Part shown: piece after piece, positions 5,349 through 64,000 of the stretch | Position numbering within the stretch: position 1 is the stretch's first letter | How the letters are laid out: each line of letters opens with the position of its first letter | NCBI RefSeq assembly: GCF_030409875.1 | Contig: NZ_JAUFQR010000001.1 | Coordinates: 868,001-932,000, forward strand | Direction of reading: 5' to 3' | Source of the DNA: Chryseobacterium tructae | GTDB lineage: Bacteria > Bacteroidota > Bacteroidia > Flavobacteriales > Weeksellaceae | Length of the DNA stretch: 64,000 nt | Notes under the pieces: generated by a model | Database searches by the model: none | The model's input: only the letters and a program-made list of their open reading frames with translations | What the model was told of the DNA's origin: nothing | Translations under genes and position numbers: made by a program

Positions 5349-6787
5349 ATGAAAAAAACACATTTTATTCTTTCCCTATTGGCTTTAGCGCTTGTTGGCT
5401 CGTGCCAGAGTAACGATGAATTGAGTACAAAATCCTCGAAGGGGCAAGAGGTACACGACAAAATAGTAAATGTAACCCATCATGATGGAAGACCTTTCAG
5501 TACCGGAAAGGTATCCGGATCGGCACAAGGAAAATTTGTTGCCGGCCCGGGAGGAAGTGTTTTGATGCAAGGGTTTTACTGGGATGTTCCTGATGGTGGT
5601 AATTGGTGGAATACCGTTAAGGATAAATTAACGGCTTGGTCTAATGCAGGAATTGGTGCAGTATGGCTTCCTCCTGCTTCAAAAGCACAGAACGGAGCCT
5701 ATTCTATGGGATATGATCCTACCGATTATTATGACTTCGGAAACTTTAATCAAAATGGTAGTGTAGAGACCCGATTTGGATCAAGAACAGAACTGGAAGC
5801 TTTGATCACAAAGCCCATGCAGAAAATATGCAGGTCTATGCTGATATTGTAATCAATCATAACAGTGGTGGGCAATCTGAAGCCAATCCGTTTACGGGAA
5901 CTAATACCTGGACAAATTTCTCAGGAGTAGCTTCCGGAAAGTTTCAAAGAAATTACAATGACTTTTATAAAAATGCCTATGGAAATAATGATGAAGGTTC
6001 TTTTGGCGGGTTTCCGGATTTGTGTCACGCGAATCCTCATGTTCAGGATTGGTTATGGGGAAGGGATGATTCAGTGGCAAAATATTATAAAAATGTCATG
6101 AAGTTTGATGGCTGGAGATTCGATTATGTAAAAGGATTTGGGCCATGGGTAGTCAATACCTGGAATTCTAAAGTAGGAGGTTTTTCTGTCGGGGAATTAT
6201 GGGATTCTAATGTCAATACTTTGGAATGGTGGGCTAATAATGCAAACAGTTCCGTATTTGATTTTGCTGCTTATTATAAAATGGATGAAGCTTTTGATAA
6301 TGGAAATTTAAATGCTCTGAATGATGATATGATGTGGAAAAGAAATCCTTACAAAGCGGTGACCTTCGTTGCCAATCATGATACTGATATCATTTATAAC
6401 AAAATGCCGGCCTACGCTTACATTTTAACCCATGAGGGATATCCTACGATTTTTTATAGAGATTATGAAGAATGGTTAAATAAAGAAAGATTAAATAATC
6501 TGATCTGGATTCACAACAACAAAGCTACAGGAACTACTTCTATTTTATATACTGACAATGATGAATATATTGCAAGACGTAACGGCTATAACGGAAATCC
6601 TGGTCTGGTCGTTTACATCAACACATCATCAACTTGGCAGGAAAGATGGATTGATACGAACTGGAGCAATCAGCAAATTAAAGATTTTACCGGAAACTCA
6701 AACTGGTATCCTACAACGCAAGGGGATAAAAGGGTGAAAATTCAATGTCCACCGAACAGTTACTCGGTATGGTCGCTTAATTTATGA
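5349..6787 (+). CDS. Alpha-amylase family glycoside hydrolase (GH13) lipoprotein, frameshifted
   Basis: Starch-type alpha-glucan hydrolase, probably exported as a lipoprotein (signal ending LALVGSC). GH13 motifs are in order: [10 protein letters not shown] (region I), [11 protein letters not shown] (nucleophile Asp), VGELWD (acid Glu) and FVANHDTD (transition-state Asp). The reading frame breaks near 5813, where AAGCCCATGC should be AAGGCCCATGC. Restoring one G joins [14 protein letters not shown] exactly. All catalytic residues survive, so the break is probably a sequencing deletion. The full protein would be about 479 residues. The start is the ATG at 5349; a TTG at 5337 is less likely. No sus-type transport genes are adjacent. 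Confidence 0.88.
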
Positions 6788-6825
6788 GTGATGAGTTCAC
6801 AGCTCAAAATTGAATAAATAATATA

Positions 6826-6905
6826 ATCTCTCGCAGATTTTGCTGATAACGCAGACTCTTTATTATAATATAAACATCTGTGTAGAACTGTGAAATCTGT
6901 GGGAA
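6826..6905. repeat. TCTCGCAGATT dispersed repeat
   Basis: Starts TCTCGCAGATTTTGCTGATA and contains ACGCAGACT, then in the other orientation CTGTGTAGAACTGTGAAATC. It is an imperfect inverted arrangement and shares its core with 2751-2780. Confidence 0.6.
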
Positions 6906-6906
6906 A

Positions 6907-7317
6907 TTACACCTGAATAAATTTTTTCTTCTGATGCTGATCGGGAAGATAGCACTTTTGATTGGCCAGCTTCATTCTGTTTCTTGAAATGATATCATAT
7001 ACTTTGTCACTAAGAAAGGTTGGCATGAGTTTGCCAATTGCTGAAAGCTTATAAATCCCACCTAGTATATTCGCAATTTGGAGTACGGCTCTTGACTTTA
7101 TAAAATAATATTGTTTTGGTTTCCAAAGGTATAAAGTGTTGAAAACTTTAGTTTCTAAGCCTCTTTCCGATAAAAATTGCTGCCCGAATTCAGATTGAAG
7201 TGAGGCAAACATGAATTTGTCTTTTTGATCTCTCTCCAGAATCCATTGCACCCAGAAATTGCAGACTCCACAATCTCCGTCAAACAGCACAATATGTTTA
7301 TCTTCCCAGTTTTCCAC
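6907..7317 (-). CDS. DCC-family thiol-disulfide oxidoreductase (DUF393)
   Basis: 136 residues with the defining N-terminal motif LFDGDCGVCNFWVQWI (DxxCxxC near residues 14-19) of the DCC/DUF393 family. Members are small thioredoxin-like proteins thought to act in thiol-disulfide exchange; the partner is unknown. The length is normal. The gene ends the pair that starts with the haem-binding protein 5 bp upstream, suggesting a shared redox role. Confidence 0.9.
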   Translation of the reverse strand: MENWEDKHIVLFDGDCGVCNFWVQWILERDQKDKFMFASLQSEFGQQFLSERGLETKVFNTLYLWKPKQYYFIKSRAVLQIANILGGIYKLSAIGKLMPTFLSDKVYDIISRNRMKLANQKCYLPDQHQKKKFIQV

Positions 7318-7322
7318 TCCTT

Positions 7323-7790
7323 TTATTTATTAAACATGATCCTCCTTTCTGTATCTTCTTTGGTTTGCTTGAAATATTTAACAAGATCTGCACGCTGTTC
7401 ATCAGTCAGTTTTGCATCCTGATGCCCAATATAGTAAGATTCAAGCGGCATTTCTTTTTTCTCAACCATCTCAATACATTCTTCCAATTTACGAAGCTGT
7501 CTTTGAGGCTCATATACTGCAAAGGTAGAAAAATTAAGATGCTTTCTGCCTTCATTAATATGATTTTTCACATACCATGAAGCGGGCGAAATATCGGCAT
7601 ACCATGGATATTTTGTTTCATTGGAATGACAATCATAGCAGGATGTTCTGATGATCTTAGCTACTTTTTCAGGGGTGTTTTTAATTTTCAAAAAATCCAT
7701 GCCGGGTGTAGGACGAGGATTGGTTTTGTCAATAGGAAAAAACTGAATGATAACGAAAGCTACGAGGAGAATGATTAGTACTTTTTTCAT
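7323..7790 (-). CDS. Haem-binding domain protein (single CxxCH)
   Basis: 155 residues with an N-terminal membrane anchor or signal (VLIILLVAFVIIQFFP). A single c-type haem motif lies in TSCYDCHSNETKYPWYADISP, typical of the Bacteroidota haem-binding domain family. The likely location is the periplasmic face of the inner membrane, and an electron-transfer or haem-handling role is inferred. It lies 5 bp upstream of the DCC-family gene in the same operon. Confidence 0.88.
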   Translation of the reverse strand: MKKVLIILLVAFVIIQFFPIDKTNPRPTPGMDFLKIKNTPEKVAKIIRTSCYDCHSNETKYPWYADISPASWYVKNHINEGRKHLNFSTFAVYEPQRQLRKLEECIEMVEKKEMPLESYYIGHQDAKLTDEQRADLVKYFKQTKEDTERRIMFNK

Positions 7791-8364: not shown

Positions 8365-10645
<2,281 letters not shown>

Positions 10646-12140: not shown

Positions 12141-12901
12141 TTATTTTTGAATAGGAGTTGGAACAGGAATCCGTTGGTTTATGTTTTTATCCGCGAAATT
12201 AAACAAGAGTTGAGTAAAGCTTTCTTCTTGCCAGTGGAATTCTCTTTGTCTAATATATGTTTTCACAAATTTGATATTTTCTTTATTTCTGTTAAGTCAA
12301 AAAAAAGCGCATTATATATTTCTGATTTTAAAATATTTTCAAAATATATAAGATTGCTATGATCCGATTTGATAAGTTCTTTTATAAACGTGAGATAGCT
12401 ATTTTTATGTGTAATTCTAAATAAAATCAGACTGGCTAATAATTGTTCATTTTGATAATAGACATCATTATCTCGTATATATTCTAGACCTTCTATTAAA
12501 TCTTTACAATATAATAATTTAATGTTTTTATGCAGATATTCCAAAGAGGCTAAAACAATCAAATCTTTGTCCTCTTCTTGTATTTTTAAGAATGATAGGA
12601 TTTTTGTGTAATTTAAGTCAAGACCAAAATCTAAGGCTATATAAATTAAATCAGATACAAATTCTCTGTCTTCATTGTCTAAATTGGAATTGATAAAAGA
12701 TTCAATTATGATAAAATCTTTTTGATCTAAAAGACTATATTCATAGAAGAATACATTCACTAGTTCCTTCTCCTGAAAATTGAGAATGAATTTTATGTCT
12801 TCTGGTGATAACTTTATTTTCTTTCTACAGATCTCCAAGATAGCTTCATTTGCTTCTTCAAACGATTTATTTTCAATGTTTTTTAATGTATTATTTATCA
12901 T
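12141..12901 (-). CDS. Hypothetical alpha-helical protein, frameshifted near its C-terminus
   Basis: About 253 residues after repair, Lys/Glu/Ile-rich and predicted all-helical (repeated pairs such as EDREFVSDLIYIALDFG and DKDLIVLASLEYLHKN), reminiscent of HEAT-like repeats. The first frame ends at 12263, but adding one A at about 12290 restores EIKENIKFVKTYIRQREFHW and continues to TAA at 12141-12143 (ending IPVPTPIQK). No enzyme motif is visible. It is in the minus-strand cluster behind the Rhs gene and coupled to 11682-12133. Confidence 0.65.
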
Positions 12902-13568: not shown

Positions 13569-16500
13569 TTAATGAGAGAAAGGATTAGGGAAAGTAAGCT
13601 TTAGATCTCCACCCAGCCCTAGGCCATCTGCTACCTTTCCTGAAACGCCTACAGAAAAACTATTATTTTTAGGGTTGTAAAGATAAGATGCTCCACCTTT
13701 TGCCCCTACTGCTCCAATAGGAATAGAACCTGTTAGGTTAATTCCCCATTGACCATTCGGTGAAGTAGCACTCCAATTTCCTTCAATTTCAGCGAATGCA
13801 GCAATTGCACCCACATCAGCTGACCATCCATATTTATTAGTCTGCATATTAGCTCCTACAAAACCTGTCAGCCCCTTTGCGCCCAAAGAAAAAGCTAAAG
13901 TACTTGTTGTGAAACTCAATTTTGCCTCTCCAACAGTTCCCTCCAAATATCCTTGAATATTTGAGTTACTACCGATTAAGTTTGGCGCAGAGAGCCCACC
14001 TTTTACATTAATTAGCTTTATATTAAGATTGGTATCTAAGCCCTCAAAGTTAAGGTTTTTCAAGCCAGCGTTATAGTCAACTGCTGTGAAATCAAATGAT
14101 GAAGCTGTAAATGATGAAACATTTCCATTCAGTTTAGAGAACCATTTACCATAATACATACCAGATGTATGCTCTTTACCTTCATTGTAAATTTTAGTTT
14201 CAGACCAATCTCCTGGTCCTCCTGGCCCTAGGGTAACCTTTGAATTACGAGAAGTATTATATTCATTATTTGTAAATCCGTCAGTAAAATTACTATATCC
14301 CATGGATCTATAATTATCTGCCGTTACTTTAGCATTCCATTCCCATTGATTACCTTTCAATCCCCAACCATCAGGAGCTCTTCCATCAGGATCAATAAAT
14401 CTGATAGGATTGTTAAATGCATAGTTATATGGGCTATGTCGAGTCATTTTTTCTGCAAGTGGATCTGTTGCTCCCCATCTCCCAAGATCCGGCATATACA
14501 TCCTTGCTCCATAGTCATACATTCCCGTTTCCTCAAGCTCTTTTCCATTGTACTTATTATGATAAGGGATGCCAAAATCTTTAAGGTTATCAAAATCATT
14601 GTATCCCTGATGTGCTAATCCGAACGGATAATAATTATTTTCTTTTAAATAAAACCATCCGCCGCCATCCGCTGCACCAAACGTAAGTCTAATATTCCCT
14701 AAATGATCTTTATAATCATAAATATATTGTGTTCGCTGCAAGTCATAAGTTCCTTCTGTTGTTGGAATTAATTTTAAAATACCATTTTCATATTGAAAGC
14801 CATCCAAATATTCTGTTGTTGTATTTCCATATACTTTTTTTAGTTTAGCTCCATCAGCCCTATAAAGATAGGAGGTGTTTCCTTGTGCCGCTAAAATTTG
14901 TTTAGGTAAATTCAGATAATTATATGTTATAGATGAAATCCCTTTATCTTTTTGATTCGTCATATTACCATTGAGATCATAATCAATAGTATTCCCTCCA
15001 ATAGGGTATCCAGAAGGGTTATTTCTATTATCAGTAACCTTTATTAGCTTATTTGATAAGTTAGGAATCTCGTAATCATAAACAAGCTCATCAATATGCA
15101 TCGCAGTTGAAGACCCGGGAGGAGGGGACTGGAATCTATTTAGCGTTTTAATATTTCCATTAAGGTCATAACTTACCTCTTCGTCATAAAAATGGTTTTG
15201 TGCATTTGAGGTAAGATAAGGGGTTAAGAAAGTTCCTTTAGTAACTCGGTTCAAAGGATCATAAGTATAAGAATATCTTCTATGGATCTTATCACGCGCT
15301 GTTTTCCAATCAGCTTCAGAAATATTTCCATTGTACTTTGCAATCCCGTATTGAGTATCTTGAGGGTTTTGATATTTTAATTGCATAGCAAAAAAATTAT
15401 CCCCTAAATTTTCAGGATCATTAATGTTTGTTAACCAGCCTCTGATATTGTATTTGTAATTAATGGATTGTAAAGGTTCGTAATTGTCTGCGTCATATTG
15501 CCCTATTTTTTTATTAGCCACTTGTCCCAATTCATTATAGTTCAGAATGGCCAATGACTCTTCCTTATAATTATTGACTTTATGCTTGTGCGAAAGCAGT
15601 CTATTCTGATGGTCATAATCAAACACTTCTCTTATCTTAGTTTCTTCATCATTTGCTGTTCTTTTATGATAAACATAGGATTCTTTAATAATACCTGTAA
15701 AGTCTAATAATGCCTCATTTTTAGTAAATCCTCCTAAATAATTGATAGAGTGAGAACCAATTTTTCTTCCCTTTGAATCATACCACGTAAAAGTCTTTGT
15801 CCAGTTGTCATCATCTATATTTTTCACATAGGATGCTACTGCCATAGATTTGGTATTTACTGTTGAATTCTGTATATCCGTTATTGTATTTTGGCCTAAA
15901 ATAGTGGCAGGTATTGCAGGTGTTCCTGTTGGATAAGTGTCATAATAATTCACACCGAGTACAGTCATGCTTCCTGTAGGAAATGCACTTTTGGTATAGT
16001 AAATATCTAACCCATTCTGAGAAAATGGAGTGGCACTTCTTGTTTCATTATTTCCGGGATTAGCGGTCATCTTATTGATGGCTGTTTGCATGACAGTTCT
16101 GGTCGCTGTATTTGAAAAGAAGCCACTATATACAACTCTCCCGAACTTATCATATTTTGTAAACAGCCACCCTTTTTTTGCAAAATTATTAGTGGTTGTT
16201 CCTAATATAGCATCTTGTGATAATATGATTCTATCCTGTTTGTCATACACCATATACTCCCAGCCTTTGCCAGGTAATCTCTTTTCAACAAGTCTGCCTT
16301 TATTATCATAACGATACTGATAACATAGATTATTGAGCAGAACCTCGGTGATTACTTGATGAACAGCATTTGGAGGTATAACAAATGCCAGCTGATCATA
16401 TTCATTATATACATAATAAGTATCTACATGGACTGTAGAGCTCATGATCTTCCTTACCAATAGGGTTTGGCCTTTTGCATTCTTGAATTCTACGGTTTGA

Positions 16501-17111
16501 TTTCCATCCTCATCAGTTACCGTGTTTTTATACAAAGTACCGGGAGCGTAAGTCTCAGTAGTAGACAAGCTTACTTCACTTTTAGTAGCCTCATTTTCCC
16601 AAACAGACTTTGCAGAATACTGATACACTTCATTGACACCATTGGTTTCATATTGGAATTTTATAGGTTTATTCGCCCAGTCTTTTCCCACCTGAATCTG
16701 TTGTTGAACTCTATCCAAAGGGGAATTTTCAAAAACTTTTTCAGCATAAATTTTTTCTGTCCCGTAGAGCGTACTACTTACATTATTTAATGGATCAGGA
16801 GCAATAGCTCCATTTAAAGAGTTAGCTTGAGGAATGGGAAGGAATTCTTTAGACTGCCTTCCAAACTGGTCATATTCGATATGATTAACAATATCTTTTC
16901 CTAATGGAGAAGCTTTTACATTGACAACTTGTTTAGATCTTCCCAGACCATCAAAATATTCTACAACACGAACTTGTTTAGCATTGTCATTAGGTTGGGT
17001 TACAGGTTCTAAATAAGTACGTACCTGTGTATAATTTTCTGTAGTAGATAATTGAGCCTCTATGTTTATTGATATAAGAAGTAATCCTATAGCTATTATT
17101 GATTTTTTCAT
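13569..17111 (-). CDS. Rhs-repeat protein with DUF6443 N-terminus and variable C-terminus
   Basis: 1180 residues with a signal peptide (MKKSIIAIGLLLISINIEAQ). DUF6443 (about residues 25-170, with VEYFDGLGRSKQVV) is followed by many YD-type repeats (YDKFGRVVYSG, YDYKDHLGNIRLTFG) that in related proteins build a beta-shell. The Rhs-associated core YDYGARMYMPDLGRWGATDP ends at DPDGR near residue 905. The remaining about 275 residues form a separate tip. They are rich in Gly, Ala and Ser with alternating beta pattern (NLTGSIPIGAVGAKGGASY) and show no nuclease or deaminase motif. In known Rhs toxins this tip is the effector. The gene follows the YD-repeat partner by 3 bp and precedes the small membrane protein. 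Confidence 0.9.
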   Translation of the reverse strand: MKKSIIAIGLLLISINIEAQLSTTENYTQVRTYLEPVTQPNDNAKQVRVVEYFDGLGRSKQVVNVKASPLGKDIVNHIEYDQFGRQSKEFLPIPQANSLNGAIAPDPLNNVSSTLYGTEKIYAEKVFENSPLDRVQQQIQVGKDWANKPIKFQYETNGVNEVYQYSAKSVWENEATKSEVSLSTTETYAPGTLYKNTVTDEDGNQTVEFKNAKGQTLLVRKIMSSTVHVDTYYVYNEYDQLAFVIPPNAVHQVITEVLLNNLCYQYRYDNKGRLVEKRLPGKGWEYMVYDKQDRIILSQDAILGTTTNNFAKKGWLFTKYDKFGRVVYSGFFSNTATRTVMQTAINKMTANPGNNETRSATPFSQNGLDIYYTKSAFPTGSMTVLGVNYYDTYPTGTPAIPATILGQNTITDIQNSTVNTKSMAVASYVKNIDDDNWTKTFTWYDSKGRKIGSHSINYLGGFTKNEALLDFTGIIKESYVYHKRTANDEETKIREVFDYDHQNRLLSHKHKVNNYKEESLAILNYNELGQVANKKIGQYDADNYEPLQSINYKYNIRGWLTNINDPENLGDNFFAMQLKYQNPQDTQYGIAKYNGNISEADWKTARDKIHRRYSYTYDPLNRVTKGTFLTPYLTSNAQNHFYDEEVSYDLNGNIKTLNRFQSPPPGSSTAMHIDELVYDYEIPNLSNKLIKVTDNRNNPSGYPIGGNTIDYDLNGNMTNQKDKGISSITYNYLNLPKQILAAQGNTSYLYRADGAKLKKVYGNTTTEYLDGFQYENGILKLIPTTEGTYDLQRTQYIYDYKDHLGNIRLTFGAADGGGWFYLKENNYYPFGLAHQGYNDFDNLKDFGIPYHNKYNGKELEETGMYDYGARMYMPDLGRWGATDPLAEKMTRHSPYNYAFNNPIRFIDPDGRAPDGWGLKGNQWEWNAKVTADNYRSMGYSNFTDGFTNNEYNTSRNSKVTLGPGGPGDWSETKIYNEGKEHTSGMYYGKWFSKLNGNVSSFTASSFDFTAVDYNAGLKNLNFEGLDTNLNIKLINVKGGLSAPNLIGSNSNIQGYLEGTVGEAKLSFTTSTLAFSLGAKGLTGFVGANMQTNKYGWSADVGAIAAFAEIEGNWSATSPNGQWGINLTGSIPIGAVGAKGGASYLYNPKNNSFSVGVSGKVADGLGLGGDLKLTFPNPFSH

Positions 17112-17114
17112 TGC

Positions 17115-20100
17115 TTATTCGCTTTTTTGAAATTGAAAGGTAAAATTCAGGTAGTTATATCTGCCAGGTGTTATCGTTCCGGATATTAATTTTGCAGATA
17201 CGTTTCCGATCTTGTCAACTCTGATTTCCCATGTACGATTGGCTGGAGTCGTTCCAAATGGGCCACCTGGGAGTTCATCAAAAGTGAAGACTAATGCCGT
17301 TAGAGATCGTTTACAATCCCCTTCAATATATCCTAATGAGCGGTTGGTATTAAAAAATGTTGGATTTAAACCTTGCGTAGCAATATAAACTTGGAACTTC
17401 ACATTTTTCCCATCATTGTAAATTACAGGAGTATTAGAAAGTACTAATGAATTGAATGTTACAAAATTACATTGTGAAGCTATGCATATTGCATTTTGGT
17501 TGGCTAAATATTGTCCATTTGAATTAAGATCATTTAAAGCTTGCTGCTCTGCGTCATCTTTTGAGGTAGAAGAGTAAGTTTCAGCAGGAACTGTATAAGT
17601 ATAAGGGCCGCCTGCAAAACCTTGTCCACAATTACTTCTTGTAAATGTTTTAGACTGTTCTGTATTGTAAAATATGGTAGGATAAGTATATGGAGAGGCG
17701 TAACCATAATTAAAATTTTTAATGATTTCTCCTGATATGTTAGTGATTTTATCCAGTCTGTTTTTTGTGTCGTATATATAATTCTCTCTTGTTCCTGAAG
17801 AAGATGTTTTACTGGTAAGACCTACTAAAGGATTATAAGTAGATGTCGTTATTGGGTAATCTTGTAAAGCTGGGTTTTTCCTAAAGGTCTCCAATGCATT
17901 AATTAATGTTTGCTCTGAGTTGATGTCTTTGTCGATATCAGACTTTTTTACGATATCTAAGTTCAAATAGGCTGTAGGGCTTGCTGAAAGTCCAAATATT
18001 TGCATTAACTCTGCGTAGGTAATTCCCTGGATCTGAGCAATAGGTATAGTCTGGTGATATCCCCATATTGTTGTAGTAGGAATACCTTGTTTTGCTTTAT
18101 TTTGTAATAAATTTCCTTTATCATCATAGAGTTGATAATACATTTGATCTTCCGTCTGTACATTTGAAATAGAAGAAAAATCAGCATTTAAAAGAGAATT
18201 TCTTGTTGTTCCGACTTTCCAAACATTTGATGTATTGGCATCTTTGATGTAAATCTTTTCAGATAAATTACTTTTACCTGTTGTATTTTTTTCTACGCTC
18301 ATTACAGGTGCGATGAAATTGTCATTGAGCATATTTTTGTAGGTAGCATATTTGCCGCCAGCATAATCAAAATCATTGCAGTTCCCTGTAAGACAGGCAT
18401 CATTTAATCTTAATGCATCTCCTGGATAATAAATATTTTTTGTGATTTCACTTCCATCTGTTAAAACCTCTTTGGTTTCGATAGGAAAAGGATGCCAGTA
18501 CAAATATTTATCATTATAAGTTTTTTTTAAGTTTGTCGTAATGCTATTATTTCCAAAGTATTCTGTTGTTGTGATACTCTCGGGTAAGTATGGAAGAACA
18601 GGAATATACGTTCTTCTTCCATCGGCAGATGGTAAACCTTCTGTAAACACATAATAATTATTATCTGTGATTTTACAATTTGAGCAATTGCTTGTGGGTT
18701 CACTTAGAGGCTCAGCATTATTTAGAAAGTTTTTGTATGTATATTCTGTAGTACTTTTAACAACGCCATTAACATCCATCAATTCCACTTTCTTTGGTTT
18801 TCCTCTTTCGTATTCTTTCGATAATAATTTTGCATCTCCAAGATTAGTTATTCCATGAAAATTAGGATTCTTGAAATACAAAGATTTGGCTTCGTCTGGA
18901 TTAGTTTTTCTGTTAGTAAAAGAATATTTTCTTATTCCTTTTTCATCAATTTCCTGAACTTCTGTATAATGTATTAAGTCAGAACTATACATATTCGGGG
19001 AAAGGTTTTCTGAAGATGTGGTCGTTGCCCCAGTATAAGTGATCAAACCATTTGGGTTCATAAAAACAACAGGCGTGGGTTTTGAATAAACTCCCTGATC
19101 TAAAATTCCCGTTGATTTATTTGAAGTATCTGTATACTTATAATTTTTAGTATATGCATGGATTCCGTCATTATTAACTTCTTTGTATAATCTTGCTCCA
19201 TAATACTTGTTTTCAGCGACATCTTCAACAACATTGCTCTCTTTATAAATCATGGAATACTTGTGGGGTTCGTAAAAAAACTCTTTGTACCCTCGTGTAG
19301 GAAGTAATATTCTTTTTAATAAACCTACTTTGAATATTTCTTTATCTGGGTTTTCAGGATCAGTATAGGTTATTTTACCATTCCAGAAGCCCATTGTATT
19401 CTTGTTTCCGGCATTATATGGTGGAAAAACATTTGTTTTATAATAGTCAAAAGAATATTCCTCATCTTTTTCATTGGAAACCTTTTTTAAAAAAGTTCTC
19501 TTGTAAGTTCCCCCCAGATTATCATAAGATAGAGAGATATTTTTTATGAGCAGATTATTCGTATCAAAGACTGTTATTTTTTTTAAATAAACCTTTGTAA
19601 GTTCTAAGGGATTTGTTGTTTCATCATACTCAAAATTCAAGTTTCCAAAATCACTAATATTGATGGTTTCTAATATACATTGTTTAGAATATATAGTTTC
19701 CGTAGTCTTTTCGGATGAAACTATATCATTAATAGTTCCGTCGTATACAGAGCGTACTGATGTAGTAGAAACAGTATTTTCTTGTCTACCTATAAATAAA
19801 TTATTACTTTTTAAAGCTTGCTTGCCTGGGAATGAAATCGTAAAATTAGCAGTAACATTTTTCCCTTCATTAATAAAACTATTTAAAATGCTTTTGTTAC
19901 TATTTTTGTATGTAGCATTTATTATTCTTCCGTTATATAGAACTACTTTTTTTAAATTCCATCCAACAATATAATTTGTTCTTACATTCCTTTTTACAGA
20001 GGTATTATATATACTAGGGCTAGCGTATTCTGAATTATCAAGATTTAGCTGATGGTAGTTAATTTCTAATTCATTAGACGAGCCTCCAAAGATAAATGTA

Positions 20101-20718
20101 TTCCCCTTATCATCCTTTAAAGTGATTTCAGAAAATGTGATCTCTCCAAAAAGAGGCTGGCAGCCAAGGTTATTTATATCTATAGTCAGATTAGCGTTTT
20201 CACAAAAAACAATAGTTTTTCCATTGTGATCAATAACAAAATATCCTTTATACCCTAAAAAGTCAAAGTAATATTTGTCTGTCATCCACGTAAAATAATT
20301 ATCAGAAGTGTTTGTAGGATTTTCCAATAACATCTTCTTTGTAGAAGCAGAAGAACCAGGTTTAAAACAATCTTGTTCATTACCACTTACTTGATTATAA
20401 AATAATGAATATTTTCGAGTTAAAGGTCTCTTTGTTTCTCTTGTAATTTTGCCAAATAAATTAACATTCCAATTAAGGCCTACAATATCAGGTTCTATAT
20501 GTGGCCTAAACCCATTAGACTCATAGCTAAGGTTACTTGCTAATGTTAGGTCATTCCCAAGACTGATTTGATAAAGAGGAACAGAAACATTTGCTAATCC
20601 TGAGTATAATCTATTATTGGTTTCTACATCTTTAATCAAAGCGTAGCTACTGATACTCTTGTCTTGAGAATACAGAAGAGTATTCATGAGCAGCAGCAGG
20701 AGGTAAATATAATTTCAT
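17115..20718 (-). CDS. Large YD-repeat partner protein with DUF5977 domain
   Basis: About 1,200 residues. The N-terminal region (SISSYALIKDVETNNRLYSG, then NVSVPLYQISLGNDLTLASN) is the type that accompanies DUF6443 Rhs proteins in Bacteroidota. The middle is beta-rich with YD-like repeats (YIYDTKNRLDKITNISGEII), and a DUF5977 domain lies near residues 1015-1075 (SNCGQGFAGGPYTYTVPAETY region). The clean frame starts at 20687 without a signal peptide. An ATG at 20718 followed by a Leu stretch would give MKLYLLLLLLMNTLLYSQ if one surplus C near 20703 is removed, so I place the true start there. Probably exported and working with the Rhs protein 3 bp downstream. Confidence 0.8.
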
Positions 20719-20727: not shown

Positions 20728-22348
20728 TTATTTCTTAATCAGCTTCGCATTCGCTGTTTTATTATTATCCGTTTTTATGGTCACCAAATAAGCACCCTGC
20801 ACCAAAGCCTGGGTATTCATCTTAGTCACTCTGTTTTTTGTTTTAAAGTTCTGAAGTTGTCTTCCGCTCATATCATACAGCATAATATCAGCTTCCTTAA
20901 AGTCAAAGCCGATTTCTACATAAGCATAATCGGACACAGGATTCGGATAGATCTTGATATCATATTTTTCAATCAGATCATTGACCTGCTTATCACCCAG
21001 CTTTACTATCTTCCAGTTTTCTTTACCCAATTCTTTGGCGCTTGTTCCGGCTAAAACGATAGAGCCATCCCTATTGAGTTTCAAATCTGAAAGTCTTTCT
21101 TCTTTCTGTCTGGATTCCCCACTCACGTGTTTTCGCCATTGTTCGTTTCCGTTTCCATCCAGATACAGCATCCAGAAGGTTTCGTCATCTTTTTCTATTC
21201 TTCCTTCTGCCTGGGTATAACCGCCTAAAAGAATTCCTTTTGAGGATTTGTCATCCGCTGAATGAATCACACTCATTCCCATCAGGATATCACGGTTTTT
21301 GAAGTTGTAGGACTTTTGCCATTGTTCATCACCTCTTTCATTAAGAGCAATCAGCCATAGGTCTGTCCCTTCTTCAATCCCTACCGTTTTGTTTCCTGAT
21401 CTTTCGGATCTGGATTCACCACCAATGATGTAGCCATTTGAAGTTAAAGCCAGCGTTCTGATATGATCGTCTGCTTTACCCCCAAAGTTCTTTTCCCATT
21501 CTACTTTTCCGCTTTTATCCAGTTTAACGATCCAATAGTCGCCTTCACCGAAGTTTTCTGTGGATTTTGCGTTGCGGGATGTGGGAGCTGTAGTGCGAGG
21601 TTCGGGATTCGGGGTGGTTTCACGAGGTTGATCTCCGGATCTCGGATCACGAACCTCAGAACTTCTTGAATAAATTCCCAATAATGCTCCACCATCTTTC
21701 GTTGGAATCATTTTCTCCACTTCGTCTAAGCCTTTTCCGCCTAATACAAGTTGGGAGAGTTCTTTTCCATCTTTGTCCAGTCTGATGATCCAGACATCTT
21801 TAGAACCATACCCTTTGGAAGAATTTTGTACATTTCCGGCAACGAAAAAGCCAAGATCTGTGCTCTGAATGACTGCTTTGGCTTCTTCATCGGAAGAAGA
21901 TCCTAATGTTTCTGCCAGATTTCATCGCCAAATTCATTGATCCTGATCAGCCAGATATCAGAACCGCCTTTGGAATCCTCTTTTTTATCCAGTCCTTTTC
22001 CGGAATAGGAGGTTCCTGCCAGTAGAAATCCTCCGTCCTGAGTGCCGACAGTAGCTGACAAGTAATCATGGTTATTTCCTGAAAAATGTTTTTCCCAGGC
22101 TTCTTGCCCTTGTTGGTTTAATTTAACCAAATGAAAATCGTAACCGTTGTTCTGCTTACTTCCTGAAGTTTGCTGTTTGTCGCTCTGAATAGAGCTTCCT
22201 GTAATAAGATACTGCTGATCGATAGTGGTAGTGACCTGGCTTAGAAATCCTGAGTAGAGGATTTGATGTCTTTCTGCCAAACAACTTCCTGAGCAGACAT
22301 ACCTACCATTGTGCATAAAGTATATGCACCGAGATAAAGTTTTTTCAT
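20728..22348 (-). CDS. T9SS-sorted repeat protein, frameshifted twice
   Basis: The reconstructed protein of about 540 residues starts at ATG 22348 (MKKLYLGAYTLCTMVGMSAQ signal peptide). It contains at least five units of the form DIWLIRINEFGDEIWQK...DGGFLLAG, which resemble beta-propeller blades. It ends in a type A T9SS sorting domain (IYPNPVSDYAYVEIG ... GAYLVTIKT), so it is exported by the Por system and anchored or released at the surface. Single-base losses near 22246 (GATTTCTAAG, one T missing) and 21910 (AGAAACATTAG, one A missing) split it into three frames. An in-frame segment SSEVRDPRSGDQPRETTPNP (about 21595-21664) looks like an inserted repeat. It heads the operon containing both Rhs-type genes, 9 bp upstream. 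Confidence 0.82.
21570..21664. repeat. Dispersed TTCGGGATTCG repeat inserted in the T9SS gene
   Basis: GGTTCGGGATTCGGGGTGG, followed by ATCTCCGGATCTCGGATCAC and GAACCTC, is related to sequences at 34130-34165, 41210-41250 and 51499-51527. It is translated in frame as a proline/arginine-rich, low-complexity segment. Confidence 0.55.
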
Positions 22349-43102: not shown

Positions 43103-43722
43103 ATGAGAAAGTTTCTTTGTGTGGTCTTTGTACCTTTTATGTATAGTTTACATTATTCGCAGGCAGCAAAAAAAGTGCTTCCCTGCTATGATCTTACAAC
43201 TGTTTTAAAGGTAGAGCCTACTGCACTTTATAAACCTCATTTGGACGCTTCAAAAAGTTTTGGAATCCATTTACTAAAAGATTCTAAAACGGTACAGAAA
43301 TATATCAGTAATGGGAAGTTTCATAAAATAAAGAAATCAGGGAAAGGATATCAGGTACAGAAACTTGATTACAGCAGAGCCTATATGGTTTCCAAAGGAA
43401 AAACAACTCTGGAGAACATGGGCTCCAAATTTAGCAAAACAACAAAAGGGGGTACATTCACAGTTTCATCCATTACCAGAACCCTGGAAGATCAATGCAG
43501 ATTAAGAAGGGTGAACTCCAATGCTTCCCTAGGAATAAGTTCACACAACTATGGCAATTCCTTTGATATTTCTTATGTAAGATTCAATAATGTTCTCAAA
43601 TATAACCCGAAAATGGAAGTGGCTTTAGAGAAAGTTTAAAGCATTATGCAGATGCTGGAAGAATTTATTACATAAAGGAAAGACAACAGAGTTGTTATCA
43701 TATTACAGTGCGGAATTATTAA
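43103..43722 (+). CDS. DUF5715 / M15-like peptidoglycan peptidase, frameshifted near its end
   Basis: About 206 residues after repair, with a signal peptide (FLCVVFVPFMYSLHYSQA). The key segment is SSHNYGNSFDISYVRF, an H-x6-D zinc-binding pattern like VanY/M15 D,D-peptidases, preceded by CRLRRVNSNASLGI. The frame stops at 43639 because one T is missing in GTTTAAAG; with TTTT it continues VLKHYADAGRIYYIKERQQS to TAA at 43722. A cell-wall cutting role in the periplasm is likely. Monocistronic. Confidence 0.75.
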
Positions 43723-46778: not shown

Positions 46779-48113
46779 ATGAATGGCAGTAGAGTGATTT
46801 CCGTTGGGATTTTTTTTGACGGTACGGGAAATAATGGAGTAAATGCACTTTCATCAGATAAACCACTGAATAATAATGAAAGCTATCATGGTGCATTCAC
46901 CAATATCTATAAACTATACAAATTATTTATCGGTAACGAAAAAATATACATTGAAGGAATAGGAACAGTAACAGGAGGTGAAGACAATAATTTTGCTATC
47001 GCAACATGTGCTAATCCACCTTATGGAAAAGGGTATTCATCAGATGATAAGCTTCAGAAAGCAGAAGATTTCGTACAGAAAATTATTCATGACCAAGAGG
47101 GTGAATATCATTTTTATCTATACGGATTCGGAAGAGGAGGTATGTTGGCAAGAGCCTTTAGTCATTGGCTGTTTTCAAATTACTCTTTTGCCAATATCAA
47201 AGTAAAGTTTTTGGGAGCTTTTGATACTGTAGAGTCAAAACCTTTTAATACATATAATCTGAGTGTATCCCATCGTATAGAAAAGGCATTGCATATTTGT
47301 GCAGTTAATGAATGCAGATTCTTTTTTCCACTAACTGGTTTTTTTGAAAACTCAAGCATAATGCAGGATTATCAGCTTCGTGATAACACCTCTGTTTTCA
47401 AAGAAATTTTTGTGCCGGGAGTACATGCAGACATCGGCGGTGGATATTTGGAAGGGCCACAGTCCGTTTATATTTCTACAGATTTTGCCACTGCGGATGA
47501 TCTGAAAAATTATATTCAAAATATAAGAAATAGAAAAAGGGATATTGAAGGAAATCAAGTTTGGGATATCTTACTTTCGGGATTTGGGATGGAAAGGAAA
47601 GATGCTTTTTCAAAAGCTTATATCTCCAGAGATAAAGTATATAGTGAGCTTTCGAAAGTATATGGAAGACTGATGTTGGAAGAGACCAATGCGATATCAC
47701 AAGTATTTAAATCAGGAAATGATCTTGAGATAGATTATAACAGGCATGCTGTGTTACAAGGATTGTATGAAGAATTGCGGGACTATGTAGAGCAGTTTTC
47801 CATGGCTAAAAAACCATCATATAATTACAATAAACTGGCTGATTATATCCATATTGCTGCGAATTTTGGTCTTTATAATGACCATTTAAAGAATAGATCT
47901 GAGTATGAAATGAATGTCGAGCTGCTTAATAATGGATTGAATGTTTCAAGCAATACTACGGTAGATCAGACAAACAATGTAAGACTTTCTGTGGAGCTTC
48001 ATCTTCCTGAAGACAGTTTTGTGAGTGATTTTCTATATGGAACCAACGTTCCTAATAATGATATTTGGACTCGATCAATTATAAAAACTCCAGTAACAAG
48101 GCTGGTGAAATAA
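46779..48113 (+). CDS. DUF2235 (Tle1-like) protein without the nucleophile Ser
   Basis: 444 residues opening ISVGIFFDGTGNNG, typical of DUF2235 alpha/beta-hydrolases, to which the T6SS phospholipase effectors Tle1 belong. The elbow GFSRG expected from the family reads GFGRG here (residues 116-120; Ser replaced by Gly, codon GGA). The Asp of VHADIGGGYLEG is retained. The C-terminal part is helical without a signal peptide. It may be a non-catalytic binding or decoy form. Flanked by a two-component operon and a histidine decarboxylase gene; no T6SS genes are in the window. Confidence 0.85.
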   Translation: MNGSRVISVGIFFDGTGNNGVNALSSDKPLNNNESYHGAFTNIYKLYKLFIGNEKIYIEGIGTVTGGEDNNFAIATCANPPYGKGYSSDDKLQKAEDFVQKIIHDQEGEYHFYLYGFGRGGMLARAFSHWLFSNYSFANIKVKFLGAFDTVESKPFNTYNLSVSHRIEKALHICAVNECRFFFPLTGFFENSSIMQDYQLRDNTSVFKEIFVPGVHADIGGGYLEGPQSVYISTDFATADDLKNYIQNIRNRKRDIEGNQVWDILLSGFGMERKDAFSKAYISRDKVYSELSKVYGRLMLEETNAISQVFKSGNDLEIDYNRHAVLQGLYEELRDYVEQFSMAKKPSYNYNKLADYIHIAANFGLYNDHLKNRSEYEMNVELLNNGLNVSSNTTVDQTNNVRLSVELHLPEDSFVSDFLYGTNVPNNDIWTRSIIKTPVTRLVK

Positions 48114-49548: not shown

Positions 49549-51485
49549 ATGCTTTCGGTTCAAAGTTTAGGATTACATCATTCAGGAAATTATTTATTTC
49601 AAAACGTAAATTTCACCATTAAAAAGGATGATAAAGTAGGACTCGTAGGGAAAAATGGAGCGGGAAAATCCACTTTATTGAAAATGCTGTCCAAAGAAAT
49701 TAACTTCTACGAAGGAGAGGTTGTAACGGAAGGAAGTGTTACTATTGGTTTCCTGAAGCAGGATCTGGACTTCGTTAAAGGAAGAACCGTTTGGGCTGAA
49801 ACAATGCAGGCTTTTGAACAGATCAATGCATGGAAAAATGAGCTTGAGGAGGTGAATCACCAGATGACGGTAAGAACCGATTATGAAAGTGATTCCTACA
49901 CAGATTTAATTAATAAAATGACCGAGCTGAATGACCTTTTAATGAACCATGATGCCTACAATCTGGAAGGTGATATGGAAAAAGTGTTGTTTGGTTTAGG
50001 ATTTAAAGCTGATGATTTCCAAAAGATTACCGATGAGTTTTCAGGAGGATGGAGAATGAGAATCGAATTGGCAAAATTGCTTCTTCAAAAGAATGATATT
50101 ATGCTTCTCGATGAGCCTACCAACCACCTGGATATGGAATCTATCATCTGGCTGGAAAACTTCCTCAAAGATTATCCGGGAGCAATCGTCTTGGTAAGTC
50201 ACGATAAACAATTCATGACTGCGGTTTGTAACCGTACTTTTGATATCAATAACAAGAAAGTTGACGACTATAAAGCCAACTATACCAAATATCTTGTCAT
50301 GCGTGAAGATCGCCGTGAAAAACTGATCCAGGCTAAAAAGAATCAGGATGCGGAGATCAAGCAGATGGAAGATAATATTAATAAGTTCCGTGCAAGTGCT
50401 ACAAAGCATCTTTCGCACAGTCCCTTATTAAAAGACTAGATAAAATCGAGCGTATTGAAGTAGATAACGAAGATGTTTCAAAATTCAATATCCGTTTCGT
50501 ACAGTCTATGGTTCCTGGAAAAGTAATTTTCGAAGCTGCAAACCTTGGAAAAGCTTATGGGCAGAAGCAAATTTTTGATAATGTAGATTTCATCGTTCAA
50601 AGGGGAGACAGAATTGCGCTTTTAGGACAAAACGGTCAAGGAAAAACAACATTAGCTAAAATTTTAGCAGGAGATATTAAAGACTACTCAGGAGACTGGA
50701 ATCTTGGACATAATGTAAACATCGGGTATTTTGCTCAGAATCAGGAAGAGGTTTTAACACCCAACAAAACGGTGCTTGAAGAAGCAGAAGATGCGGCAAC
50801 AGAAGAAACCAGACCTAGAGTAAGAGACTTATTAGGATCTTTCCTATTCCAGGGAGATGCGGTTACTAAGAAAACAAAAGTACTTTCCGGAGGAGAGAGA
50901 AACCGTCTGGCACTTTGTAAACTGCTACTTCGTCCTTTCAACACGTTGATTATGGATGAACCTACCAACCACTTGGATATTCAGTCTAAGGAGATCATCA
51001 AATTAGCGCTACAGAATTTTGAAGGGACATTAATCGTAATTTCTCACGACAGGGAATTCCTTCAGGGGCTTTGTGATAAAATCTATGAATTCCGTGATGG
51101 TAAGATGAAAGAATTCCTTGGAGATATCAATGAATACCTTGAGTACAGACAAAAAGAAAGCATCAGAGAAATCTCTGCAGAGAAAGCTAAATTGCATAGT
51201 GTTGAGGAAATTAAGGTAGAAGTTAAACCAAAAGTGGAAGAAAAGCCTGTGGCTAGCAACAGTCAGACATCCAATATCATCACTAAAGAACAGAAAAATA
51301 TCCAAAATAAAATCAAGAAGGTAGAAGAGAGAATTTCTGAACTTGAGACTAAAGTAGAAGAAATGGAAGCTTCATTCGCTAAAGAAAATCCTTCCGATGA
51401 AACTTTAGAAAAATATAATAAAGACAAAGAAGAGCTGGATAATGCCCTGCAAGAATGGGAATATTTAGGTTCTCAATTAGATTAA
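49549..51485 (+). CDS. ABC-F family ATP-binding protein, frameshifted
   Basis: About 646 residues after repair, two ABC ATPase domains without membrane segments: GKNGAGKST and SGGWRMRIELAKLL with DEPTNHLDMES; GQNGQGKTT and SGGERNRLALCKLL with DEPTNHLDIQS. The linker and C-terminal coiled coil are those of ABC-F translation factors (Uup/EttA group). The frame breaks at about 50404: ACAAAGCATC should be ACAAAAGCATC, restoring ATKASFAQSLIKRLDKIERI. A role at the ribosome, possibly antibiotic protection, cannot be distinguished from sequence alone. A terminator follows at 51501. Confidence 0.93.
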
Positions 51486-52335: not shown

Positions 52336-54719
52336 ATGAAATTGATATATTGCCTGTTGCTGATCTTTTGTGGATCGGTATTTACGAGTGCACAGAAAAC
52401 GTATACTGTACAAGGAACTGTTCAGGATTTTCATGATAAAACCATGCTGGAAAATGCGTTGGTGAAAATTGGAAATCTTACAGCCAAAACAGATAAAAAA
52501 GGAGTTTTTTCCTTTGATAAAGTCCCTGCTGGGAAGTATACACTCATTGCAAAACATCCTGATTGCAATGATTATACTGAAAATATAGGAGTTGATCAGG
52601 ATCTTCACATAACCATCACTTTAGAACATCATTCAGGTGATATAGAAACCATTACTTTACACGGAAGTCATAAAAACAAAGGTTCCGTAGTAATGAAAAC
52701 ACTGGATAAAACCGAAATTGAAAGAAACTCCACGGAAAACCTTGGGAATATTCTTTCGAAAATTTCAGGAGTAACCGTGTTGAAAACAGGAAATAATATT
52801 ACAAAACCTGTTATTCATGGTCTTTATGGAAGCCGTATTTCTATTTTGAATAATGGTGTGAAGCTTGCAGAACAGGAATGGGGTGCAGAACACGCTCCCA
52901 ACGTGGATGTTAATGACTTTGAACATATAGATGTTATTAAAGGAGCATCCGCTTTGAAATATGGAAATGATGGAGTAGCAGGAGTAGTGCTTTTGGAACC
53001 TGCCATACCTCCTAAAAAAGATACTTTGATGGGGAATATTAAACTGTCGGGGATTTCTAATGGAAGAGGAGGCGAAATTTCAACTAACGTGCTTAAATCT
53101 TGGGAAAACGAATGGTTTGTAAAAGCAGGTGGAAGTTATAAAAAGTTGGGTGACCTGTACATTCCGCATCATACGCTTCAAAATACCGGGGCGGAAGTGA
53201 ATTCCTTTAACTTTTCATTCGGGAAGCATGATTTTATGCAAGGATTTGATGTTTCTTACAGTGGTACCAATCAGAACTTTGGAATTTACAGAGGTGCACA
53301 TCTTGGAAATGGATATGATATCTACAAAGCAATGACTTTAGGTCAACCTTATTTCTTAGATGATTTCGGCTATGATATTGGATATCCAAAACAGAATGTA
53401 GAACATCATATTGCAAAGATTTCTGCCTATAAACGTTTTGCTGATTTTGGTAAAATTACTTTTCAGTATAGTTTCCAATTAAACAGACGTAAAGAATATG
53501 ATATCAGAAAAGGAGATTTGAAAGATACTCCTTCTATGGATTTAAGACTGATTACACATTCCGCGAGCCTTACTCACCTTATTGAACGTTCAAAATGGAG
53601 CTTAGAAAGTGGAATTTCAGCAGGGTTTCAGGATAATTATCCCAACCCGGCTACGGAAGTCAGACGTTTAATTCCTGATTATTATCGTTATGATGCAGGA
53701 GCTTTTTCTGTTTTTAAATATCGTTTCTCTCCAAAATTAAATGCGGAAGCAGGAGTAAGATACGATTTTAGCAGATACGACTCCTATAAATATTATGATG
53801 CTAAAGAATGGAATGATAAATATGCTGACGTCTTTCCGGAATTCTACATCAAGCAAAGTGGAAGCAGAGTCTTAACTCGTCCAATTATTGATAATCATAA
53901 TATTTCAGCCAATGTTGGATTGAATTATAATCCCTCTAAAGATTTTGATATCAAATTTAATTTTTCAAGAATGAGTAGAACTCCGAATCCGGCAGAATTA
54001 TTTGCCGATGGGCTTCATCATTCTGCTGCAATTATTGAAAAAGGAGATTTAAGAATCAAAAAAGAAGAGATTTATAATGCGAATCTTTCATTAACAGGTC
54101 GTTTCGATGTTTTGAAAGGGTTGCAGATTGAGGCTAATCCATATATCATTTTTTCTGATAGTTTTATCAACCAGATGCCTACAGAAATTCAAACAACAAG
54201 CAGAGGAACTTTTGCCGTTTGGGCTTATCAACAGGTAAAAGCCAGAATGTACGGAATAGATGCTGATGCACAGCTTAATATCTTGGATAATCTGAAATGG
54301 ACGACTAACTTCAGTGCATTGAGAGGGGATGATTTGACGAATAATGAACCTCTTATTCTCATGATGCCAATGACCCTTAGAAATTCATTGGAATTGAAAT
54401 TGAACAAACCAACCAATTTCTATATCAGATTGGAAATGAAAATGTGTTTAAACAAAATCGTTTCCCGATCAGAGATCAGTCGGTACAATTCATCGAGGAT
54501 GGGCAAATGGTAACTAAAACAATAGATTACAGTACTCCTCCTTCCGGATTTTCAATATTCCATGCATCAATTGGTGCAGATCTATTCAAAAACATGAATC
54601 TGAATTTCAGAATCAACAATATTTTTAACAAAGAGTACAAGGAATATCTCAACAGATTGAGATATTATATGCCAGAACCGGGAAGGAATTTTGTGGTTAC
54701 TCTTAAATACAATTTTTAA
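52336..54719 (+). CDS. TonB-dependent outer-membrane receptor, frameshifted
   Basis: About 795 residues after repair. Signal peptide (LIYCLLLIFCGSVFTSAQ), an N-terminal carboxypeptidase-regulatory-like beta domain (about 25-110), a plug (TVLKTGNNITKPVIHGLYGS) and a beta-barrel ending in FVVTLKYNF with terminal Phe. Lacking a neighbouring SusD gene, it is a metal- or cofactor-type receptor rather than a SusC polysaccharide transporter. The frame is lost at about 54435 (GGAAATG should be GGAAAATG). The His-rich lipoprotein downstream suggests zinc or another transition metal. Confidence 0.9.
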
Positions 54720-59723: not shown

Positions 59724-60172
59724 TTACTTAGTCTCGTGGATAGGAAGTACCAAAACAGGGATATTTGAGCTCTTAGTAAGTCCTTTTGTAAGACTTCCTA
59801 CAAATACATCATAAATTCCACTTCTACCATGGGAACCCATCACAATATAGTCCGCGTTTTTGGCTTTGGCATGCTCAAGAATAATATCTTTTGCTAAGCC
59901 CTGTTTTAAAAGATGCTCACAATCGATATCATGGGCGATAATTCTTTGTTCAATCTTATTAAGCTGAACCAATTCCTCCCTGATTTCATTGGCTTCCACT
60001 TCCGGGAAATATTGAAATCCCATATCACCAATGGCGAAACCGATATCTGATGGTGCAACATGAATTAGGTAAATTCTACCGTTAAGTTGTTTTTGCAAAT
60101 TTTTATGGCACCTTCCACCAGTTGGTCTGTTTTTGTCCCCCAAAAATCTACGGGTAATACAATATTTATCAT
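59724..60172 (-). CDS. Universal stress protein, frameshifted at N-terminus
   Basis: About 149 residues after repair. The USP core is VMGSHGRSGIYDVFVGSLTK with the ATP-binding G-2x-G-9x-G(S/T) pattern. The N-terminus in the correct frame is MINIVLPVDFWGTKTDQLVE then GAIKICKK, and it joins QLNGRIYLIHVAP if one A is added near 60092. The uninterrupted frame from 60182 gives a different, wrong start. Monocistronic stress-response protein; the exact signal is unknown. Confidence 0.88.
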
Positions 60173-60250
60173 AACCTTTCATTTTTGTTACCTAAAGATA
60201 GGAAAAAAAATTACCAGACTTTTATGTTAAATACTTATAATATTCGAATA

Positions 60251-60852
60251 TCAAGGATTTTTTTCGTCTTCCAGGTAAGCTTCAAGAATATCATTTTTCA
60301 TCTACTTTTTCCAACTCCTTTTTGGGGGTACCTGTATAGATGAGATCTCCTACTCTTAAAGTGAAGTACTGAGAAGCAAAAAGCAATAATATCATCGAAA
60401 TGGAAAAAGCATATCTTTCGTATTTCCATCCTGAACTTTCTCTTTGTTCTTTAGAAGTGAAAAAAAGACAGGTTATCAAGGGCGAAATTTTCCCTTTTTT
60501 TGAAGAAGTTTCCTACGACTGCCGAACCATCAAATCCTTTGGCTAGTTCCCAAGGCAGTCCTTTGGATTTTAATTCGCTCTGAAGATCTCTGGCCGTAAA
60601 GTCAATCCCTAAACTCAGTTCTTCGTAATGTTTGTGAGCGGTCTCTTTCTGAATGTATTTCCCGCCTTTAGATACTTTTATAACTACTTCCAGCTCATAG
60701 TGGATATCATTGGAGAATTCAGGAATATAAAAATCATTTCCCTTTAAAACCGCTGTATCCGGTTTCATAAAAATAACAGGGTTCTCAGGAATTTCATTCC
60801 CTAATTCTTTAGCGTGTTCGCTGTAGTTTCTTCCTATACAGATGATTTTCAT
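60251..60852 (-). pseudogene. Fumarylacetoacetate hydrolase-family gene, broken by several indels
   Basis: The first 120 residues are a clean FAH-family start: MKIICIGRNYSEHAKELGNE, then FMKPDTAVLKGN and HYELEVVIKVSKGG with metal-ligand Glu. The rest is scattered over three frames: LDNLSF, KVQDGNTKDMLFP, then FTLRVGDLIYTGTP, then GVG..DEKNDILEAYLEDEKN-stop at 60251. At least four indels in homopolymers (T-runs near 60470, 60395, 60375 and a C/A run near 60322) must be corrected to read it. The original would be about 200 residues. I suspect heavy sequencing error, but true decay is also possible here. Confidence 0.75.
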
Positions 60853-61328: not shown

Positions 61329-61330
61329 AA

Positions 61331-62094
61331 TTAAAACCTGCTTGACAGTTGAATTTTAGTGAATACTTTCTTGGTGTACAACGGGAAGTCTGCATTCTGA
61401 AGCCATCCGTAATATCCAAGATCCTTTTGGAACACGGCTTTTACACCTTGTCCTTTATATTTTCCAAAATTGAAGATCTCTTCTTGCTTATCATTATATC
61501 CGATAAATCCGGCAAGATCTGCATTTTTATTGTGGAAAGTAAATTCGCTTAAAGGAGCAATTTCGTTTGGAATATCATCATATTTTCCTACCTGCGCATC
61601 CAGCACTTCAAAAGTTGCCATTACATCAGCTTCAGCAGAGTGTGCATTTTCTAATGTTTTTCCACAGTAAAACTGATAAGCAGCTCCAAGGTTTCTAGGT
61701 TCTTTCTTGTGGAAAATAGTCTGTGCATCTACCAACCTGAATTTACTAAGGTCAAAATCCATTTCTACTCTTAATAATTCTTCAGCCAAAAGAGGTACGT
61801 CGAATCTGTTAGAGTTAAAACCTCCTAAATCAGCACCAGTAATCATTTCCATTACTTTAGAAGCGATTTCCCTGAAGGTAGGAGCATCTTTACATCTTCA
61901 TCATAAATTCCGTGAATTTCACTGCTTTCTTTGGGAATCAGCATTTCAGGATTCACTTTCCATGTTTTGCTTTCTCTGGAAGAGTCTGGATTCACTTTTA
62001 AGATACAGATTTCAACAATTCTATCTTTTCCGATATTTGTTCCTGTTGTTTCCAGATCAAAAATACAAAGGGGTTTATGGAGTTTTAAGTTCAT
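61331..62094 (-). CDS. DnaQ-like 3'-5' exonuclease, frameshifted
   Basis: About 254 residues after repair. The DEDDh exonuclease motifs are visible: FDLETTG (catalytic Asp/Glu), GFNSNRFDVPLLAEELL (third Asp) and HSAEADVMATFEV (His and Asp). The C-terminus reads QVGKYDDIPNEIAPLSEF. The frame breaks at about 61889, where GTAAAGATGC should be GTAAAAGATGC, restoring DEDVKDAPTFREIASKVMEM. The start is the ATG at 62094 (MNLKLHKPLC). The gene is not an epsilon subunit for certain; it may be a proofreading or RNA exonuclease. Confidence 0.88.
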
Positions 62095-62871: not shown

Positions 62872-62876
62872 AGAGA

Positions 62877-62884
62877 CAAAATTA
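62877..62884 (-). promoter_or_regulatory. Near-leaderless promoter of pssA
   Basis: TAATTTTG on the minus strand, 5 bp before the ATG. Confidence 0.5.
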
Positions 62885-62948
62885 CAGTTTTTAAAAATTC
62901 TATCTCAAAATATTATGCATTAAAAAATGCCATAAAGTGATTTTGATG

Positions 62949-62956
62949 TAAATTTG
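62949..62956 (+). promoter_or_regulatory. Near-leaderless promoter of the LtaS-like gene
   Basis: TAAATTTG on the plus strand, 4 bp before the ATG at 62961. Confidence 0.5.
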
Positions 62957-62960
62957 CCCC

Positions 62961-64000
62961 ATGAAATTTTTAAAAGGATTTAGAAAACAGGAAGTTCTGG
63001 CACTGCTTTACAGAATTTTTTTAGCCTATTTTTTTTATCAGATTGCAAGACTTTTATTCTGGTACTTTAATAAGGATCTGATTAAAGTAGATTCTGTTTC
63101 AGAGTATCTTAAGCTTGCATATCATGGGACAGCCTTCGATACTACGGCTATTTTGTATGTCAATGCATTATTTATATTATTGAGTCTTTTGCCATTGGTC
63201 ATTAATACAAAGAAAGGGTTTCAGAAAGTTCTTTTCTGGATTTATTTTTTGACTAATGGATTAGCGTATGGAATGAACTTTGGAGACTTTATTTATTATA
63301 AGTTTTCTCAGTCCAGACTTACATCAGCCGTATTTCAGGTAGCAGAACATGAATCTAATGTCTCTCAGACTTTGATGATCTCAATAGGGCAGCACCCTTT
63401 TGTACTGATTTGGTTTATCATTTTAATGGGATTATGGGTTTTCCTTTACAAAAGAGTGAAGGTTGAGGAAACAAAACCCGCTCAGTTGCTTCCTTATTTT
63501 TTATCTTCCATTGTTACTTTATGCATTACCGTAGTTTTAGTTGTAGGGGGTATTAGAGGAGATTTTAAACATAGTACAAGGCCTATTAATATGGTAGATG
63601 CAACCCGTTTTGTAACAAATCCATTGCAAGGAAATTTAGTTCTTAATAGTACATTCTCATTCTTCAGAACTTTAAATACAAATAATTTCAAGGAAGTTCA
63701 TTTTGTAGATGAAAAATATATTGAAGACAATATATATCCTTATAAAGTGTATGACAGAAAGGTAGAAAACCGCCCCAATATTGTGATTTTTATTGTAGAA
63801 TCATTTGGAAGAGAGTATTCCGGAGCCTTTAATAAAGATAAAAATATTAAAGATTATGTTTCCTATACACCATTCATGGATAGTCTGGCTTCTCAGAGTC
63901 TTATTTTCCCGAATGCTTTGCCAATGGAAGACAATCTATTCATGGGATGAGTAGCGTGTTGGCAGGAATTCCGAGTCTTACCGATGCTTTTACGGGGTCT
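62961..64000 (+). CDS. LTA synthase-like sulfatase, partial and frameshifted
   Basis: N-terminal part of a membrane sulfatase-fold protein: about five helices (VLALLYRIFLAYFFYQIARL and on) then the extracellular domain beginning PNIVIFIVESFGREYSGAFN (metal site). The frame breaks at about 63918, where one T is missing (GCTTTGCC should be GCTTTTGCC). With it the reading continues AFANGRQSIHGMSSVLAGIP, the family's conserved segment with catalytic Ser/Thr nearby, to the window end. Such proteins transfer glycerol- or ethanolamine-phosphate to glycans or lipids. Divergent from pssA. Confidence 0.88.

Follow-up and report, generated by a model that had tools for sequence, protein, structure and literature searches.

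The window considered here, a stretch of 64,000 nucleotides from Chryseobacterium tructae (bases 868001-932000 of contig 1, in an assembly of 5.63 Mb and 3 contigs with an estimated completeness of 97.3%), raises the question of why gene after gene appears to be cut by the loss or gain of a base or two, and whether these breaks exist in the organism or in its sequence record. An earlier note made 20 claims of this kind, comprising 18 point sites, a cluster in a fumarylacetoacetate hydrolase (FAH) gene and the start of a YD-repeat gene, and read them as a sequencing or assembly artefact. That reading is supported in substance, as are most of the individual claims, while some details have changed. 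We consider it highly probable that the breaks stem from uncorrected run-length errors in the consensus of what looks like a long-read assembly; they almost certainly belong to the record and not to the organism. We hold this view because frame-breaking indels are in excess over relatives, because indispensable genes are split, because selection on the broken genes appears normal, and because the rRNA copies of the assembly disagree among themselves.

The nearest genomes by test-gene match, G005, G006, G007 and G015, are 83-86% identical to the target, and alignment of G006, G007 and G015 spans most of the window outside about 10.7-20.7 kb, a region in which G015 provides matches to four genes and G006 to one. 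To locate frame breaks, we aligned the relatives' open frames to the target and noted every indel whose length is not a multiple of three; events that appeared in the comparison with a single relative, or that lay at the ends of genes, were left out of the counts. On this basis 43.6 kb of the window holds 20 clusters on which all covering relatives, at least two in number, agree (44 clusters in total when those below the counting criteria are included); the same test applied to the relatives returns 0 clusters in G007, 2 in G006 and 1 in G015.

Broken and unbroken genes in the window

At 15 of the 18 point sites, which the earlier note had placed at 5813, 8737, 9080, 21910, 22246, 27960, 29515, 32783, 33945, 36656, 43636, 50404, 54435, 61889 and 63918, bases are missing relative to the relatives and the frame is broken by loss, with all three relatives concurring at 14 of the 15. 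The genes concerned are each a single frame in G007 and G015, whose lengths are given here with the Pfam assignment. On the forward strand they are an alpha-amylase gene (5349-6787; break near 5810, on which three relatives agree; 479-483 aa; assigned by Pfam from the G007 protein), a katG-like catalase-peroxidase (8371-10645; breaks near 8736 and 9079; 758 aa; Pfam peroxidase), uracil phosphoribosyltransferase, upp (29349-29998; near 29515; 216 aa; UPRTase), malate synthase, aceB (32500-34071; near 32782 and 33946; 524-541 aa; Pfam), a thioesterase (36370-36791; near 36654; 140 aa; Pfam), a DUF5715 gene (43103-43722; near 43635; 206 aa; Pfam), an ABC-F-type ATPase (49549-51485; near 50403; 642-645 aa; two ABC_tran domains and ABC_tran_Xtn), a TonB-dependent receptor (52336-54719; 794 aa; Pfam), in which the break lies at 54430 by comparison with two relatives and, by the third, 23 bases further on at 54453, and an LtaS-like sulfatase-domain gene that continues beyond the window (62961-64000; near 63917; 642 aa; Sulfatase). 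On the reverse strand they are a secretion-system sorting-domain gene (20728-22348; near 21909 and 22245; 533-549 aa; Por_Secre_tail), a 'Pls-like' gene with AMP-binding and carrier domains and hexapeptide repeats (25287-29206; 1306 aa; Pfam), whose break lies at 27965, and an exonuclease (61331-62094; near 61889; 254-268 aa; RNase_T). The sorting-domain gene had been described as a type IX secretion gene; it is broken as claimed, and its product is cargo carrying a sorting domain, not part of the secretion machinery.

Two further reverse-strand genes are broken by gain. Comparison with three relatives bears out the surplus bases claimed for the FAH-family gene (60235-60852; several breaks; 201-aa frame in G007 and G015; FAA_hydrolase). 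The universal stress protein gene beside it (59724-60172; 145-148 aa in the same relatives; Usp) is indeed broken near 60092, the cause being surplus bases at its 5' end, on the edge of the FAH patch, and not a loss.

Three claims fare less well. A break at 11935 is weakly suggested: the 71-aa frame there aligns with longer frames elsewhere, giving 10 matches in 9 of the 59 other genomes searched at 28-38% identity, of which 9 fall in open frames 143-178 aa long and the remaining one in an 88-aa frame. The break proposed at 12290 falls within an open reading frame that is full length (12263-12901, reverse strand), since its closest homologue, 94% identical among five homologues aligned, is likewise 212 aa long and ends at the same point. 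This 212-aa protein has no Pfam match and at least 53 homologues, those named including Flavobacterium, Empedobacter and Chryseobacterium among others; it represents a conserved family with no assigned function. Nor do we find an event at the start of the YD-repeat gene, which forms one uninterrupted frame of 1180 aa; the sole relative that covers it, G015, shows the same. This RHS-repeat gene with DUF6443 (13569-17111) adjoins a DUF5977 gene of 1190 aa, the two occupying 13569-20687 on the reverse strand, both unbroken, with small orphan genes beyond the pair. Elsewhere in the window, a gene at 46779-48113 on the forward strand encodes a catalytic domain like that of the type VI secretion phospholipase Tle1.

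Breaks beyond the window and in the ribosomal RNA genes

Breaks are spread along the 444 kb sampled around this locus, and close relatives do not carry the same breaks, a comparison that the earlier note had itself proposed. Fully supported events number 80 in the target against 0 in G007, 18 in G015 and 9 in G006. Restricting the set to one- and two-base events about which the relatives concur leaves 75 across 300.8 kb of aligned gene sequence (about 0.25 per kb), against 0, 9 and 3 respectively in about 272 kb of each relative; the references are unequal, since as many as three relatives served for the target and two for each relative. The excess has binomial p values of 1e-21, 8e-13 and 1e-17. 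Limiting the target to two reference relatives, whichever two are chosen, still gives 42-56 events in the 152-167 kb compared within a 264-kb stretch. The 75 events comprise 64 losses of one base, 4 losses of two, 3 gains of one and 4 gains of two, or 68 losses against 7 gains, and all 20 events of this survey that fall in the window coincide with sites, or with the cluster, of the earlier note. Given the 9 and 3 events in G015 and G006, natural indels may account for a small number of the 75.

Breaks are carried by 59 of the 326 frames matched to one relative in the 444 kb, which serves as a warning, on grounds of data quality, against calling pseudogenes in this record. If the rest of the genome, which was only sampled, is alike, automated annotation would yield hundreds of false pseudogenes, among them catalase, malate synthase and even RNA polymerase. 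Open reading frame length alone is a weak measure of the problem: the mean is 309 aa in 25 stretches of contig 1 and 308 aa in 5 stretches of contig 3, against 371 aa in G007 (24 stretches) and 387 aa in G015 (4), and the 319 aa of G006 (4) is hardly above the target.

The ribosomal RNA genes provide a comparison internal to the assembly, in which copies of one gene differ in run length. Seven 23S matches extend over the whole model, with lengths of 2776-2788 bases. Among three copies compared there are 37 indel places, 35 of them of one base and all in runs of 3-8, while BLAST gives 1 mismatch in each of the two pairs run; aligning all three copies together produces 9 mismatch columns, and these we ascribe to gap placement. 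On contig 2, a comparison of two copies over 1.3 kb yields 15 run-length indels and 1 mismatch. These two lie close together near the contig end, in its first 20 kb, and the first is mostly the shorter. Run-length disagreement between 23S copies is far denser than indels in genes, and comparing an assembly's own 23S copies in this way offers a cheap check that needs no reference.

The platform is a separate matter from the artefact itself. More than half of the genomes barred from RefSeq for many frameshifted proteins are attributed, in the available part of that report, to Ion Torrent or Proton sequencing (PMC7604302), so that an origin on a short-read instrument with flow-based chemistry, Ion Torrent for example, deserves some consideration in place of long reads. 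We think it improbable, since three contigs and seven full-length 23S matches imply long reads at least for the scaffold. Nor could the platform be identified from the literature on nanopore sequencing of Chryseobacterium, the accessible text of PMC11194056 covering named isolates of other species with no match to this one, and for CycloneSEQ as a candidate platform the literature yielded a single review. Returning to long-read consensus error, we infer a nanopore-type platform and incomplete polishing behind the breaks.

Run lengths and the surplus patch

The mechanism that we propose has two parts. At scattered sites the consensus would drop one base from a short A/T run, and within a single patch of about 400 bases it would call runs too long; each miscount would shift the frame, so that an intact gene appears split. 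In a tally confined to runs with identical two-base flanks and at least two relatives agreeing, and with the surplus patch excluded, one base is missing from 4 of 4209 A/T runs of three, 24 of 1999 runs of four, 0 of 658 runs of five, 3 of 218 runs of six and 0 of 61 runs of seven to nine; runs of five show besides one loss of two bases and one of three among the 658. Single bases are lost at 6 of 40161 A/T and 4 of 30420 G/C positions, and one base is lost from 1 of 645 G/C runs of three. In the relatives, all runs of four compared (1214, 1216 and 1219) keep their length. By majority labels, which are uncertain where a substitution adjoins the gap, the 68 loss sites of the 444 kb fall in runs of four (36), six (6), five (4) and one to three (22). 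The attribution to homopolymers in the earlier note therefore stands mainly for short A/T runs, long runs not being favoured.

Runs of four are affected more often than runs of three (p 7e-9) and than runs of five (p 0.0015 for one-base losses, p 0.04 for any loss), while against runs of five to nine the difference for any loss has p 0.11, which does not firmly establish that runs of four are preferred to all longer ones. If the rate doubled with every added base, runs of five to seven should show 31 losses; 5 are observed. A climb with run length is usual in long-read artefacts, not defining of them; its absence here is unlike plain compression of long runs and speaks to that extent against the proposed mechanism. 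Long-run compression as such was discarded, run-length spectra being like those of the relatives and no loss occurring in 61 runs of seven to nine. A methylation-type motif was also sought, by eye, and no dominant motif stands beside the 24 four-to-three sites when compared with the 1999 background runs; A and T runs of four do not clearly differ (14 of 936 against 10 of 1063). One-base losses affect 27 of 2223 A/T runs of even length and, among those of odd length from five upwards, 0 of 713 (p about 0.001), a post hoc and unexplained observation.

The surplus patch (60090-60500) has 20 surplus columns and 0 missing relative to three relatives, covers the end of the universal stress protein gene and much of the FAH gene, and contains six of the seven gains in the 444 kb. 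Among its filtered runs, all 5 runs of four have gained one base and all 6 runs of three keep their length; in the multiple alignment, 7 of 10 runs of four are lengthened and 8 of 9 runs of three unchanged. None of 14 runs of four in the surrounding 2 kb has changed, making this a single, sharply bounded stretch, whose cause we can likewise only infer.

Much of this resembles published accounts, as far as their available parts describe it. The authors of Homopolish (PMC8011154) and Kastor (PMC12007338) present indel errors of this kind as a known source of false pseudogenes, and the breaks here are like those nanopore errors in being run indels, mostly losses, in conserved genes whose frames are whole in relatives. 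Kastor reports deletions after long single-base stretches, whereas here runs of five or more are affected no more often than runs of four. The Homopolish authors suspect that basecallers overfit particular run lengths, which would be consistent with a rate that fails to increase in longer runs. The density of 23S disagreements recalls the residual errors in repeats described for Polypolish (PMC8812927); unlike those, the FAH patch is not a known repeat. A literature search on errors specific to short runs found no description of this pattern beyond the papers cited here.

Natural gene loss and recoding as unlikely alternatives

Were the breaks real, in a lineage losing many genes at once, for example a mutator slipping in A/T runs, the predominance of losses over gains (68 to 7) and the location of most filtered losses in A/T runs would both be accounted for. 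Against this, loss rates do not climb with run length and the 23S copies differ only in run length. Nor is selection relaxed in the broken genes: third positions take 79-82% of their substitutions (56-59 matches per relative) against 73-75% in other aligned frames, which may include spurious ones, a bias as strong as elsewhere or stronger, with the proviso that very recent breaks would escape such detection. Genes that cannot be lost are also split, as the earlier note had claimed of essential-type genes. We find alaS in frames of 118 and 777 aa against a single 883-aa frame in four relatives, and rpoC in frames of 729 and 714 aa against one frame of 1426-1442 aa in four relatives. Gene loss on this scale is, in our view, very unlikely.

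Housekeeping genes that are affected yet apparently under selection might instead suggest real breaks that the cell overcomes by recoding or by transcriptional slippage, as happens in some endosymbionts that carry long A/T runs. Short runs are not known to support slippage, and the broken runs here are short, mostly with three bases left; the sites are neither common to relatives nor in long slippery runs, and the affected rRNA is beyond the help of translation, so that we give this reading hardly any credence. The same slight chance attaches to breaks present in cells whose replication or repair is defective in a way that shortens above all A/T runs of four, with extensive recoding sustaining RNA polymerase and alanyl-tRNA synthetase.

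The main dnaE is intact, which is what scattered breaks under consensus error would lead one to expect; a second dnaE-like gene has 861 aa here against 1021-1026 aa in three relatives. A search for ileS brought up two more genes, which from their lengths we take to be valS and metG, in three and two frames here against one in each relative. The first, an ileS-superfamily gene and probably valS, lies at about 1017645-1019871 of contig 1, its three frames corresponding to one 889-aa frame in four relatives.
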